Positions 2,097-25,298 of a stretch of 33,280 nucleotides of DNA are shown piece by piece. Numbering within the stretch: the stretch's first letter is position 1; every line of letters starts with the position of its first letter. A program made the position numbers and the translations under genes. Source of the stretch: Chloroflexota bacterium (lineage in GTDB: Bacteria > Chloroflexota > Dormibacteria > Dormibacterales > Dormibacteraceae); NCBI GenBank assembly GCA_005880855.1, contig VBGM01000024.1, positions 1-33,280 of the forward strand. Reading direction: 5' to 3'. The notes beneath the pieces were generated by a model, which searched no databases, was not told the origin of the DNA, and was given only the letters and a program-made list of their open reading frames with translations.

Positions 2097-2417
2097 CTAC
2101 ATCATGCTCAAGGTTTCGTAGACCGCGATCTGCCCGCCGCTCTTCAGAATGGGGCAGCCTTTCGCCATCTTGGTGGCGGCATCAAGCGACCCCGCATCGA
2201 CGATGGTGTACCCGCTGGCCCTCTGACCTATGGGCCCCTTCGCCGCGGTGCCATCTGCCTTGATCTTGTTGACCGCACCCGAAAACGGGTTGCCCATGTC
2301 GACAACCGCGGAGCCGAGCTTTCCGTACCACGTGCCCCACTGCTTCAACACCCGTGCCTGCGCGGCCGGTGTTTCAGGCATTCCGCCGCCGTAGAAAACG
2401 AGCAGGTACTTCGCCAT
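2097..2417 (-). CDS. YCII-related (DGPF-type) domain protein
   Basis: 106 aa, a single YCII/DGPF-type alpha-beta domain. It opens with KYLLVFYGGGMPE, has the central LDAATKMAKGCPI helix and ends in a IAVYE strand, the usual order in this family. Members are small ferredoxin-like-fold proteins, often encoded beside ECF sigma factors or stress genes; their chemistry is mostly unknown and I assign none. The ATG at 2415-2417 is preceded by a strong Shine-Dalgarno (GAGGAGGGAG, minus strand), unlike most genes in this window. It is followed after 17 bp by rsmE. Confidence 0.8.
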   Translation of the reverse strand: MAKYLLVFYGGGMPETPAAQARVLKQWGTWYGKLGSAVVDMGNPFSGAVNKIKADGTAAKGPIGQRASGYTIVDAGSLDAATKMAKGCPILKSGGQIAVYETLSMM

Positions 2418-2455
2418 TCACTCCCTCCTCTTTGCTGCCGAAAATGCGGTGGCCG

Positions 2456-3121
2456 TCAGCCTAGCGGATGCTCGCGCGCGTGTCCCATGTGGATTTTCTT
2501 CTGTGGATTTTCCTCCCATCCGGCGCGCAGCTTTTTGATCAGCGTCAAAGCTCGTTCCAGACGCTTGCGATTGAGCGGATCGTTGAGCCAGCGGCTCTGT
2601 CCGGACGGGTGGGGTAGCGGGACCATCACCGGGCTCTCGCCGAATGAGCGGCCGACGCGCTGCTCCAGCGGCCCGGGTCCGAGAAACCGGGTGATCGCCA
2701 TCTGGCCGACCAGGATGATCACCTGCGGCTCGAGCAGCTCGAGCTCGGCGTCGAGCCAGTGCGCGCAGTTCTTGACCGCCGCCGGCGGAGGCCTGAGGTC
2801 GCCGGTGCCGGTTTTATTGCGGCCGGGAAAGCAGCGCATCAAGGCCGCGATGTACGTGAGATGCCTGAACTCTTCGGCGCTGGCGAAGCCGGCGCGCAGC
2901 ATCCAGCGGTCGAGCTCCTTGCCGGCGCGACCTGAAAACGGTCGCCGTGTCTCGCGCTCGGCGGGTCCAGGCGCTTGCCCGACCAGGAAGAAGGGAGCGC
3001 CCCACTCGCCGGCGAAAGTCGGGTTGGCCTCGGCGATGATGCCCGCGTCCACGCACACGTGGCAAGCGCGACATGCGGTCTGCAGCTCGCGCAGCGCTGC
3101 CGGCCCGGGCCGAGAAACCAT
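2456..3121 (-). CDS. Uracil-DNA glycosylase superfamily protein (family 4-like, probable Fe-S)
   Basis: 221 aa. It probably removes uracil from DNA to start base excision repair. Motif 1 is GQAPG (residues 48-52), close to the GEAPG of family 4, and motif 2 is HPSGQSR from residue 171. Cysteines 17, 20 and 23, then C97 and C119, are placed where family 4 enzymes bind a 4Fe-4S cluster. GQAPG instead of GEAPG and HPS instead of HPA put it between families 4 and 5, so I leave the family open. The gene is divergent from mrp: the starts are 68 bp apart. A TAGCTT hexamer ends 6 nt before the ATG, suggesting a leaderless transcript. Confidence 0.85.
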   Translation of the reverse strand: MVSRPGPAALRELQTACRACHVCVDAGIIAEANPTFAGEWGAPFFLVGQAPGPAERETRRPFSGRAGKELDRWMLRAGFASAEEFRHLTYIAALMRCFPGRNKTGTGDLRPPPAAVKNCAHWLDAELELLEPQVIILVGQMAITRFLGPGPLEQRVGRSFGESPVMVPLPHPSGQSRWLNDPLNRKRLERALTLIKKLRAGWEENPQKKIHMGHAREHPLG

Positions 3122-22715: not shown

Positions 22716-23267
22716 ATGAAGAGGTTTGTGATCGTCATTGCGATGGTGTTGGTGCAAGGTTGTGACGCTCCGTGGGCGGGGCCAACCTTGCCCGACGGCT
22801 CGCACGCGCTCAACCTGACCGAGCTCAGCGTCCGGGGACCTTTCGATGTGGCTCCCGCCATCATTGCCTCGACCTCGCTTGTGGAGGTGCGGGATCAGGT
22901 GATCGCACATGCGGTTGGAATTCGCCGCCGAACCCCGGGCGAGGTCTGCCAGGCGTACGAGACCGTTCCGGACCCATGCTGGGCCCAGCAGGTCGACCAG
23001 GCCGGACATGTGTATGTGGCCGTGATCATCAATTACGAGTGCACGAGCTCGACCAAGGACGCCTCAGCCGCCGGCGGGCACACCCTCTACTACATCCATT
23101 GGGTCGGCAGTCCTCAGGGCGTGTGCAACGCATCGATGGCACAGCCGATGTGGCGCCTCTATTCCGCATCGAGAAGCGACCTGCCCAGCTCAGGGATGCT
23201 GAGGGTGCGTCTCGTGTTCCAGGGCTCAGCCCAAGGCGATATCGACACTCAGGTCCAGCTGACCTAG
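22716..23267 (+). CDS. Predicted lipoprotein of unknown function
   Basis: 183 aa. The signal peptide MKRFVIVIAMVLVQGC has a lipobox (VQGC, C16), so the protein should be lipid-anchored at the outer face of the membrane. Five further cysteines occur in the mature part, including EVCQAYETVPDPCW, YECTSS and GVCNAS, and could form disulfides. No conserved domain is recognised. The ATG at 22716 has no clear Shine-Dalgarno, and I see no TANNNT box in the preferred position. It ends 2 bp before the minus-strand small gene. Confidence 0.65.
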   Translation: MKRFVIVIAMVLVQGCDAPWAGPTLPDGSHALNLTELSVRGPFDVAPAIIASTSLVEVRDQVIAHAVGIRRRTPGEVCQAYETVPDPCWAQQVDQAGHVYVAVIINYECTSSTKDASAAGGHTLYYIHWVGSPQGVCNASMAQPMWRLYSASRSDLPSSGMLRVRLVFQGSAQGDIDTQVQLT

Positions 23268-23269
23268 CG

Positions 23270-23533
23270 TCAGGTCCCGTTGCGCTGGCGGCGGTCCTCG
23301 GGCGCCTGGCCGAGGAGCTGGGCCTGCAGCGCGAAGATGTCGTCGAGGACGCGGTCGATCCGCCTTCCCTCGAGACGGTGGTCGGCAATCACGCCGGCGC
23401 GCTCGAGATGCCGGCGCAAGGACGTGCCCAGCGGGCCGTCGACGCGCGTCTTGCCTCCGACCTGTGCCTCCTCGAGGAGCTGGAGGCAGCGATCGAGCGC
23501 GAGCTGGCGAAGCCTGTGCTCACGGACGGTCAT
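23270..23533 (-). CDS. Small protein coupled to the Rieske gene
   Basis: 87 aa from an ATG at 23531-23533 that overlaps the Rieske stop as ATGA. It is a soluble, charged, mostly helical protein: REHRLRQLALDRCLQLLEEAQ at the start, a glycine-containing middle (VDGPLGTSLRRHLERAGV) and a helical end (LDDIFALQAQLLGQAPEDRR). I do not recognise a family. It is the third gene of a sigma-Rieske-small protein operon, so a regulatory or assembly role with these two is plausible, but that is inference from position only. A longer frame (to 23689) overlaps the Rieske gene and is rejected. Confidence 0.6.
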   Translation of the reverse strand: MTVREHRLRQLALDRCLQLLEEAQVGGKTRVDGPLGTSLRRHLERAGVIADHRLEGRRIDRVLDDIFALQAQLLGQAPEDRRQRNGT

Positions 23534-24189
23534 GTTCCGAGGACCTCTACCCGTCCCGCCGCGGTGATCCGTGCCTTGACCTCGTTGAGGGCCGGCAGCG
23601 GGTAAGCCGGGCTGCTCGGCTTGCCGTCTGCTGCGAACGAGACCGGGTGGCAAGGGCACTCGAGCAGCCTTGTCCCCCCATCCCACCACAGCTCACAAGG
23701 CAGGTGCGAACAGATCGAGGAGACCGCCGTCACCGACTCGCCACGACGAAAGACGAAGGCGCCCACCGCGCCCGCTTTGACCAGCTTGCCCTGGCCTTCG
23801 GCGAAATCCGTGAGCGCTCCCACGTCCGTCCATTTGCCACCCAACGGCAGCACCGGCTTCGACGCCACCCGCGGCGCTGATCCCGCTGCCGGAGCGAGCG
23901 CCTTGCCCACCGCTCCGCCTGCAAGCGCCCCTGCAGCAACCCCCAGGCCGGCGACGAGCGCCGCCCGCCGGGTCAACCATGTCTCTTTCGGGGTGGATTC
24001 GAGGATCTGAGCCAGATGGCGGCGAAAGGCGGGGCTCATCCGTTGCGGGCCTTGCCGGGCAGCAGCGAACCGGGCCGCGGCCGTGATCGCCTCCTTTTCC
24101 TCTGCATCGCCGGCGCGCAGCCTCAACCGCCTGCCGTGCAGCAGGTCGTCCACGATGCGCTCTATCCGGTTCTCGGGTTTCTCACGCAT
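23530..24189 (-). CDS. Tat-anchored Rieske [2Fe-2S] protein with cytoplasmic N-terminal region
   Basis: 219 aa. Residues 1-70 are hydrophilic and helical (IERIVDDLLHGRRLRL, ending SPAFRRHLAQILES). A twin-arginine LTRRAAL (RR at 74-75) starts a hydrophobic anchor (76-97). The C-terminal Rieske domain has C160 and H162 in SICSHLPC and C178 and H181 in CPCH, so all four cluster ligands are present; C165 and C180 would make the usual disulfide. Rieske proteins serve in bc complexes, but no cytochrome b gene is near. Its ATG overlaps the sigma stop by 8 bp. The N-terminal region recalls anti-sigma proteins of this group, so a redox-sensing anti-sigma function is a hypothesis. Confidence 0.82.
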   Translation of the reverse strand: MREKPENRIERIVDDLLHGRRLRLRAGDAEEKEAITAAARFAAARQGPQRMSPAFRRHLAQILESTPKETWLTRRAALVAGLGVAAGALAGGAVGKALAPAAGSAPRVASKPVLPLGGKWTDVGALTDFAEGQGKLVKAGAVGAFVFRRGESVTAVSSICSHLPCELWWDGGTRLLECPCHPVSFAADGKPSSPAYPLPALNEVKARITAAGRVEVLGT

Positions 24190-24733
24190 CCGGATCCACC
24201 TTCGCGGCCGCGCGCAGGGCGCGCAGCTGCATGACCTTGACCGCACCCACGGTTGAACGCATCTCAGCGGCCACTTCCCTCAGGGAATACCCGTGCAGGA
24301 AACGCAGCTCGAGCACGCGCCGATAGTTGTCGCTGAGCGCCGCCAGGATTCGCTGGGCTCGCTCAGTCGATTCATCTGACGGCGGACCCTGCGGCACCGC
24401 CATCGCCAGGTCCTCGTGCAGCTCAGCCTGCGAGAGACCGAGGCGCGTGCTCCAGAAGGCACCTAGCACGGAGCGCGCAGTCGCGAAGAGGTAGCCGCGG
24501 ATCGCGCTCGCCGGCGCCCCCTGACGCAGGCGCGGGATTGCCTTCAGCGCCACCTGCTGGGTGAGGTCTTCAGCGTCGGCTCGATTGCCCACCCGCGCGT
24601 AGATGAACGCGTACACCAGCTCGAGCTCGTCGAGCGCGATGTCGGTGGCGCGGGTCGCGCTTGGGAGCTCGACGACCTCTCCCGGCTCGGAAGGCGCACC
24701 TGTATCGCTGGAGCTCCCCTGTTCTGTGGTCAT
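24182..24733 (-). CDS. ECF-type RNA polymerase sigma factor
   Basis: 183 aa. Sigma region 2 covers about residues 36-95 (ELVYAFIYARVGNRADAEDLTQQVALKAI, with the DAEDLTQ core), and region 4 covers about 125-178 (LSDNYRRVLELRFLHGYSLREVAAEMRSTVGAVKVMQLRAL, a helix-turn-helix that reads the -35). ECF sigmas direct polymerase to stress promoters and are usually held by a linked anti-sigma. The overlapping Rieske gene is the only candidate partner. The ATG at 24731-24733 is used because the reading frame upstream has no family similarity and runs into the lipoprotein gene, which ends 7 bp away on the same strand. Confidence 0.9.
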   Translation of the reverse strand: MTTEQGSSSDTGAPSEPGEVVELPSATRATDIALDELELVYAFIYARVGNRADAEDLTQQVALKAIPRLRQGAPASAIRGYLFATARSVLGAFWSTRLGLSQAELHEDLAMAVPQGPPSDESTERAQRILAALSDNYRRVLELRFLHGYSLREVAAEMRSTVGAVKVMQLRALRAAAKVDPDA

Positions 24734-25208: not shown

Positions 25209-25298
25209 CCCGGAAAGTCCGACCCAAGAATGCTCAAGGCGTTACCCGAGCAGGTTACTGGAGGAGCACCGGGCATCAACCCTCACTAGAAAGGCGGA

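Follow-up and report, generated by a model that had tools for sequence, protein, structure and literature searches.

Rieske centres are known as electron carriers and normally form part of respiration. In Streptomyces the sigma factor BldN has RsbN as its anti-sigma partner, which is anchored in the membrane, acts through three helices and is the founder of the class III anti-sigma domains (PMC8103513, PMC7406223), and the reported BldN site reads CGTAAC-N16-CGTTGA (PMC2375139). Iron-sulfur clusters have been described within anti-sigma factors as well: RsmA and RshA are soluble proteins reported to carry [2Fe-2S] clusters, with cysteine ligands in the case of RshA (PMC3427169). A further point of reference is Sinorhizobium meliloti, for which the available sections of one report describe a 'lipoprotein 15' gene in the rpoE1 operon and a pseudoazurin in the RpoE4 regulon, in connection with a sulfite response (PMC3511301). 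Full-text literature queries combining Rieske with ECF or anti-sigma factors returned unrelated papers only; the gene context described here may be listed in a large ECF classification of 2021, which was beyond the scope of these queries.

The locus described here lies in a stretch of 33,280 nucleotides from a Chloroflexota bacterium (the window) and comprises overlapping genes for an ECF sigma factor, a Rieske protein with an N-terminal extension and a small protein of 87 aa (Table 1). The original prediction, made from this stretch, had described three overlapping ORFs, and its overlaps are exact to the base: 8 bp are common to the sigma stop and the Rieske ATG, and 4 bp to the Rieske stop and the ATG of the 87-aa gene (ORF reading, minus strand). 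A CHRD lipoprotein gene stops 7 bp short of the sigma ATG and is probably the first gene of the operon, one gene ahead of sigma; presence and absence across relatives show that only part of the family has it. On the plus strand, between metK and the operon, lies an ORF for a predicted lipoprotein of 183 aa (22716-23267) without family match, which is shared by few relatives. We consider it likely that sigma factor and Rieske protein form a cognate pair of an ECF sigma and a membrane-anchored anti-sigma factor, with the Rieske domain as extracytoplasmic sensor.

Table 1. Features of the sigma/Rieske locus in the window (positions on the forward strand).
Feature	Position	Strand	Evidence
ECF sigma factor, BldN-like, 183 aa	24182-24733	-	Pfam Sigma70_r2/r4_2
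NT + Tat/TM anchor + Rieske protein (candidate anti-sigma), 219 aa	23530-24189	-	Pfam Rieske, conservation, alignment
NT domain, residues 1-72, cytoplasmic, candidate sigma-binding	23974-24189	-	profile A3, low-confidence model
Twin-arginine signal anchor + transmembrane segment, residues 73-98	23896-23973	-	RR census, hydrophobicity
Rieske domain, residues 119-192	23614-23835	-	Pfam, ligand census, Foldseek
Small helical protein, 87 aa, family-specific accessory	23270-23533	-	ORF; no Pfam match
CHRD-domain lipoprotein, 155 aa	24741-25208	-	Pfam CHRD 2.6e-5
Promoter-like element AGTAACCTGCTCGGGTAACGCC (GTAAC-N8-GTA), candidate autoregulation site	25238-25259	-	conservation upstream of CHRD/sigma

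The sigma factor consists of regions sigma2 and sigma4 only, without sigma3 (Pfam r2 at residues 37-89 and r4_2 at 125-174). Among NCBIfam models the BldN family TIGR02952 matches best, its 63.7 bits (1.9e-17) being far under the 206-bit cut-off of that model and outside BldN equivalog membership. The closest solved structure is sigma-BldN in PDB 6DXO with 1e-11, the next best match reaching 9e-5. Judged by these matches the sigma factor is related to BldN and is not a BldN equivalog.

The Rieske protein is built from a helical N-terminal domain (NT), one transmembrane segment and an extracytoplasmic domain, as seen by alignment, hydrophobicity and model. The Pfam Rieske match has an E-value of 1.6e-9, and Foldseek aligns the domain with soluble Rieske proteins, the best being 8HN2 from Chlorobaculum tepidum. 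All four cluster ligands named in the original prediction, C160, H162, C178 and H181, are present, and the disulfide pair C165/C180 is found in addition. The twin-arginine anchor that had been placed at residue 74 was recovered as R74/R75, followed by the most hydrophobic 19-residue window of the protein at 76-94. This Tat anchor suggests a topology with NT in the cytoplasm and the Rieske domain outside. In a ligand census of 118 unique pairs RR is kept in 116, and neither the four Cys nor H181 are substituted in any aligned column. In 8 of 117 sequences Asp takes the place of H162, and these eight stem from several lineages (L014, L023, L027, L028, L055, L078, L083 and L169); a canonical Rieske centre is therefore not universal among Rieske proteins carrying NT (NT-Rieske proteins). 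The redox regulator RsrR with its Cys2-His-Glu ligation is a precedent for ligation other than by Cys and His (PMC11138216).

We determined how constantly this protein is accompanied by a sigma factor. By protein search almost every genome of the same family was found to encode a Rieske protein with the N-terminal extension, identities being mostly 45-92%; in other families of the class they were about 30-40%. Neighbourhoods were inspected at about 100 loci. Loci of the own family (type A) show the order sigma, Rieske, small protein within a syntenic metK-cysS-ABC-F region, where the CHRD gene and the lipoprotein gene at 22716-23267 come and go while sigma and Rieske stay paired. Type B pairs are found in other families, and some genomes of the own family have one in addition to the first pair; in each case the surroundings are unrelated and lack the small protein. 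The association also extends to other classes of the phylum. Since the pair is conserved throughout family, class and phylum, it is not due to chance.

When 400 genomes of the phylum were screened with a profile of residues 1-72 (A3), 82 gave a match, and in 39 of 40 loci taken from this search NT was fused to Rieske beside a sigma gene. The original prediction had proposed to count how often homologues of the N-terminal region are fused to Rieske and lie next to an ECF gene. A sigma gene is directly upstream of 167 of 169 NT-bearing ORFs (including loci counted twice; 123 unique pairs), nearly all of which have NT fused to Rieske. The exceptions are L082, an NT-Rieske gene without sigma beside it, and L143. 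Around the 17 Rieske genes that lack NT, flanks of up to 1.5 kb were free of sigma genes (0/17), although a very different sigma could escape a profile built from NT-paired sigmas. Plasmid relatives gave Rieske-domain matches only, none with NT.

In nearly all pairs examined start and stop codons overlap, by 4 bp (commonest), 8, 11 or 14 bp, which makes co-transcription of sigma and NT-Rieske probable. Translational coupling of this kind would also suit a membrane-bound co-activator or stabiliser of sigma, and the inhibitory sign of control is one that we infer. To our knowledge, however, adjacent and co-transcribed membrane partners of ECF sigmas are nearly always inhibitors. The nearest characterised sigma, BldN, likewise has a membrane anti-sigma (PMC8103513), and we regard a stabilising role of NT-Rieske as very unlikely. 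Distances were also compared among the three parts. Partial correlations were 0.62 for NT and sigma, 0.48 for Rieske and sigma and 0.24 for NT and Rieske; NT distances track those of sigma more than Rieske distances do, which is suggestive of a link between NT and sigma, and only that. Mean-field DCA on 118 pairs (Neff 75) did not clearly favour sigma-NT couplings over those between sigma and Rieske or between NT and Rieske.

In the AF model of the Rieske protein of the window NT comprises helices at residues 5-19, 29-46 and 53-65, modelled with low confidence (pLDDT about 50-60). Comparison of the NT profile with PDB and Pfam gave chance matches only and no known anti-sigma domain, RsbN included. 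With a BldN-like sigma and three predicted helices NT would resemble a class III anti-sigma domain in layout and partner. The genome of the window itself encodes a natural fusion, a diverged sigma-like protein with an in-frame C-terminal NT and without Rieske domain (L080 6186-7172, minus strand, contig C123), which matches the sigma profile with 8e-22 and NT with 2e-12 and is located directly upstream of a type B sigma/NT-Rieske pair. Two relatives (L053 and L054) also carry a sigma-NT fusion without Rieske. NT is therefore tied to sigma independently of Rieske.

Some NT arrangements deviate from the common scheme. L143 contains a stand-alone NT-like ORF of 123 aa (2360-2728, plus strand), which lacks a Rieske domain and is not accompanied by a sigma gene. 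In L060 an extra short NT-like ORF is located between the sigma and NT-Rieske genes, and the gap between the sigma and Rieske genes of L064 is unusually long; both may possibly reflect a tandem duplication of NT.

The cytochrome b gene of the genome is located on another contig (C33), beside a different Rieske gene; NT-Rieske is therefore not needed to explain the bc complex. Among the genes examined near the operon none encodes cytochrome b. This agrees with the original prediction, according to which no cytochrome b or other bc gene is nearby, and the placement of NT-Rieske with cytochrome b/c genes in relatives, which would have spoken against it, was not seen: the neighbours are not bc genes. 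NT-Rieske as a subunit of the bc complex was rejected on both grounds, the other Rieske gene adjoining cytochrome b and the neighbours of NT-Rieske not being bc genes. A related reading takes the protein for a respiratory or oxidase-type carrier that is merely transcribed by the adjacent sigma, with a role of NT unrelated to sigma, e.g. in membrane targeting. An apparently functional Rieske domain and an operon that probably drives its own transcription would fit such a carrier, and the contact between sigma and NT is one that we infer, but a bc Rieske beside its cytochrome b is encoded elsewhere in the genome, NT goes with sigma and not with Rieske in general (0/17), and it is also fused to sigma where Rieske is missing. 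We therefore think this reading improbable.

The 87-aa gene is present in 38 of 42 genomes of the family (f1), where it almost always comes after the Rieske gene; outside the family two marginal matches were obtained. With 54-99% its conservation is above that of the Rieske protein within the family. The AF2 model is helical with a pLDDT of 83, no Pfam family matched, and the best hit of the fold search, Rex repressors with an E-value of 0.27, was not significant. The original prediction had counted the 87-aa protein as a further partner of the system. This part could not be upheld: because the protein is confined to one family it is not a core partner, and it was rejected as a core component given that sigma/NT-Rieske pairs persist across the phylum without it. 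High conservation and the overlap with the Rieske gene in many loci might also be explained if the 87-aa protein were the real sigma regulator and the Rieske protein its target, but restriction to one family and the pairing of sigma with NT-Rieske elsewhere in the phylum leave this idea with next to no probability.

The intergenic alignment of type A loci revealed a strictly kept block, AGTAACCTGC-N3-GGTAAYGCC, which in the window corresponds to the element in Table 1. Searching with GTAAC-N7/8-GTA, we found this element upstream of the sigma operon in 105 of 120 loci, where about 0.4 were expected. It is present in 37/38 type A, 27/31 type B and 41/51 more distant loci, as compared to 0.03, 0.10 and 0.23 expected from dinucleotide shuffles, and on the reverse strand in only 3/120. 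The window carries a single site. Each of the four genomes tested has a single copy of the long type A consensus, always located at the operon, and the copy in the window is the only one in its genome. Classical ECF motifs (GGAAC-N15/18-CGTC and similar) were not in excess upstream of sigma, and addition of a T (GTAACC-N6-CGTA-N4-T) did not raise the pattern above control.

CGTA is a common core of ECF -10 elements, and the first half of the element, GTAAC, equals the core of the BldN -35, CGTAAC. Only 7-8 nt separate GTAAC from GTA, about 9 nt less than the usual spacing of ECF promoters, and a -10 at normal spacing is conserved neither in the window element nor in the about 105 loci related to it. 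Many loci have their first in-frame start codon 17-33 nt past the start of GTAAC, too close for a normally spaced -10 to fit. With half-sites so close, recognition by the sigma factor stays a candidate. The simplest reading of the element would be autoregulation by the adjacent sigma, because the sigma-Rieske pair is all these loci have in common. Taken together, the sigma-NT fusion, the relationship to BldN/RsbN and the putative autoregulatory element point to sigma regulation, in line with the original prediction of the Rieske protein as sigma-regulating partner.

We also analyzed the element at other genomic positions. In the second class, the class of G240, TGTAACC-N6-CGTA has 57 sites in 20 genomes; in the larger genomes of this class the reversed pattern gives comparable site numbers. 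In five genomes of one genus (G154, G205, G226, G240 and G170) all 14 of 14 sites are located upstream and in correct orientation of three kinds of genes: the sigma operon, a Lipoprotein_15 gene and a cupredoxin lipoprotein. Each of the five has one Lipoprotein_15 gene, marked by the element, and in G212, which has two, both carry it. Further sites precede cupredoxin genes and genes of Tat-secreted ferritin-like proteins. Outside the sigma operon 16 of 45 sites precede Lipoprotein_15, cupredoxin or Ferritin_2 genes, a count in which related species are not independent observations; 15 of these 16 were checked by Pfam and the last, L280, through its similarity to L263. The remaining 29 of 45 sites are in many cases probably due to chance. 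The kinds of genes predicted as targets recur beside the pair: in other lineages genes for Lipoprotein_15 and cupredoxin, and also for YtkA-like and DoxX proteins, are found directly downstream of it, and the only Lipoprotein_15 gene of the genome of the window (C123:3683-3997) follows its type B pair. YtkA-like genes directly after NT-Rieske are seen in many genomes of the class of G240 (e.g. L151, L164 and L165), suggesting a copper or oxidase-related output.

Cofactor proteins that are exported by Tat are proofread beforehand. It is conceivable that NT acts as anti-sigma domain while the Rieske centre is an electron carrier working with the co-regulated cupredoxins and not a sensor, its own abundance or assembly, e.g. 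Tat export or cluster insertion, being coupled to the release of sigma. Proofreading would suit such a coupling, the predicted targets as well as the genes that follow the pair encode electron carriers or copper proteins, and the cluster ligands are conserved as much as in respiratory Rieske proteins. A constant gene for an electron-transfer partner is lacking, however, the downstream genes varying by lineage, and we regard a carrier of this kind as unlikely, if worth keeping in mind.

In the preferred model, the cognate sigma/anti-sigma pair, NT would bind the BldN-like sigma and sequester it at the cytoplasmic face, while the Tat anchor would keep the [2Fe-2S] centre of the Rieske domain on the extracytoplasmic side. 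This centre, of the high-potential, disulfide type, could report electron flow or oxidants through its redox or cluster state. A change at the centre would then release sigma, which would transcribe its own operon from GTAAC-N8-GTA and, in lineages with more sites, also a few genes for secreted redox proteins (Lipoprotein_15, cupredoxins and ferritin-like proteins). The pair appears to be an uncharacterised signalling system which senses electron flow on the outside of the cell and governs genes for small secreted copper proteins and lipoproteins. Whether it represents a new class of one-protein transmembrane redox sensors seems to us an even question: here an extracytoplasmic Rieske domain would control an ECF sigma via a new anti-sigma domain, in a feedback loop by which the state of high-potential carriers sets the expression of cupredoxin and Lipoprotein_15 genes from promoters whose -35-like and -10-like boxes lie unusually near each other. 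If true, bacteria with a Rieske domain as sensing end could follow the redox poise of the electron transport that they run outside the cytoplasm. The system is found widely among Chloroflexota, uncultured soil lineages included, and hints at the regulation to which the uncharacterised Lipoprotein_15 family may be subject. As it provides predictions for an anti-sigma domain, a promoter element and a regulon, each claim is directly testable.

Among known systems sigma-BldN with RsbN (class III, 6DXO) is the nearest solved relative of the sigma factor and shares with the present pair a membrane-anchored partner encoded by the adjacent gene, a three-helix cytoplasmic part, which is predicted here, and GTAAC as the core of the BldN -35 (PMC2375139). 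It differs in that NT has no sequence match to RsbN, that the extracytoplasmic domain is here a Rieske domain, that the half-sites are 7-8 nt apart as compared to 16 for BldN, and that the regulon, as predicted here, comprises redox lipoproteins, as compared to chaplins for BldN. RsmA and RshA have in common with our proposal that an iron-sulfur cluster is proposed to control an anti-sigma factor; their cluster is reported to reside in the soluble anti-sigma itself, whereas here it would sit in an extracytoplasmic Rieske-fold domain with Cys/His ligands, separated from the part that is the candidate for sigma binding. The ECF26 factors RpoE1 and RpoE4 of S. meliloti are similar in the secreted 'lipoprotein 15' and the blue-copper protein and in the anti-sigma gene beside sigma, but belong to another ECF group and have a sulfite dehydrogenase as output, and no Rieske domain is seen in the available sections of that report (PMC3511301). 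The Rieske subunit of the cytochrome bc1/b6f complexes shares the Tat signal anchor, the Rieske fold, the Cys-X-His and Cys-X2-His ligands and the disulfide pair; the proteins described here differ from it by the additional NT, a partner encoded by a sigma gene instead of cytochrome b, and an Asp in place of the first His in some members.
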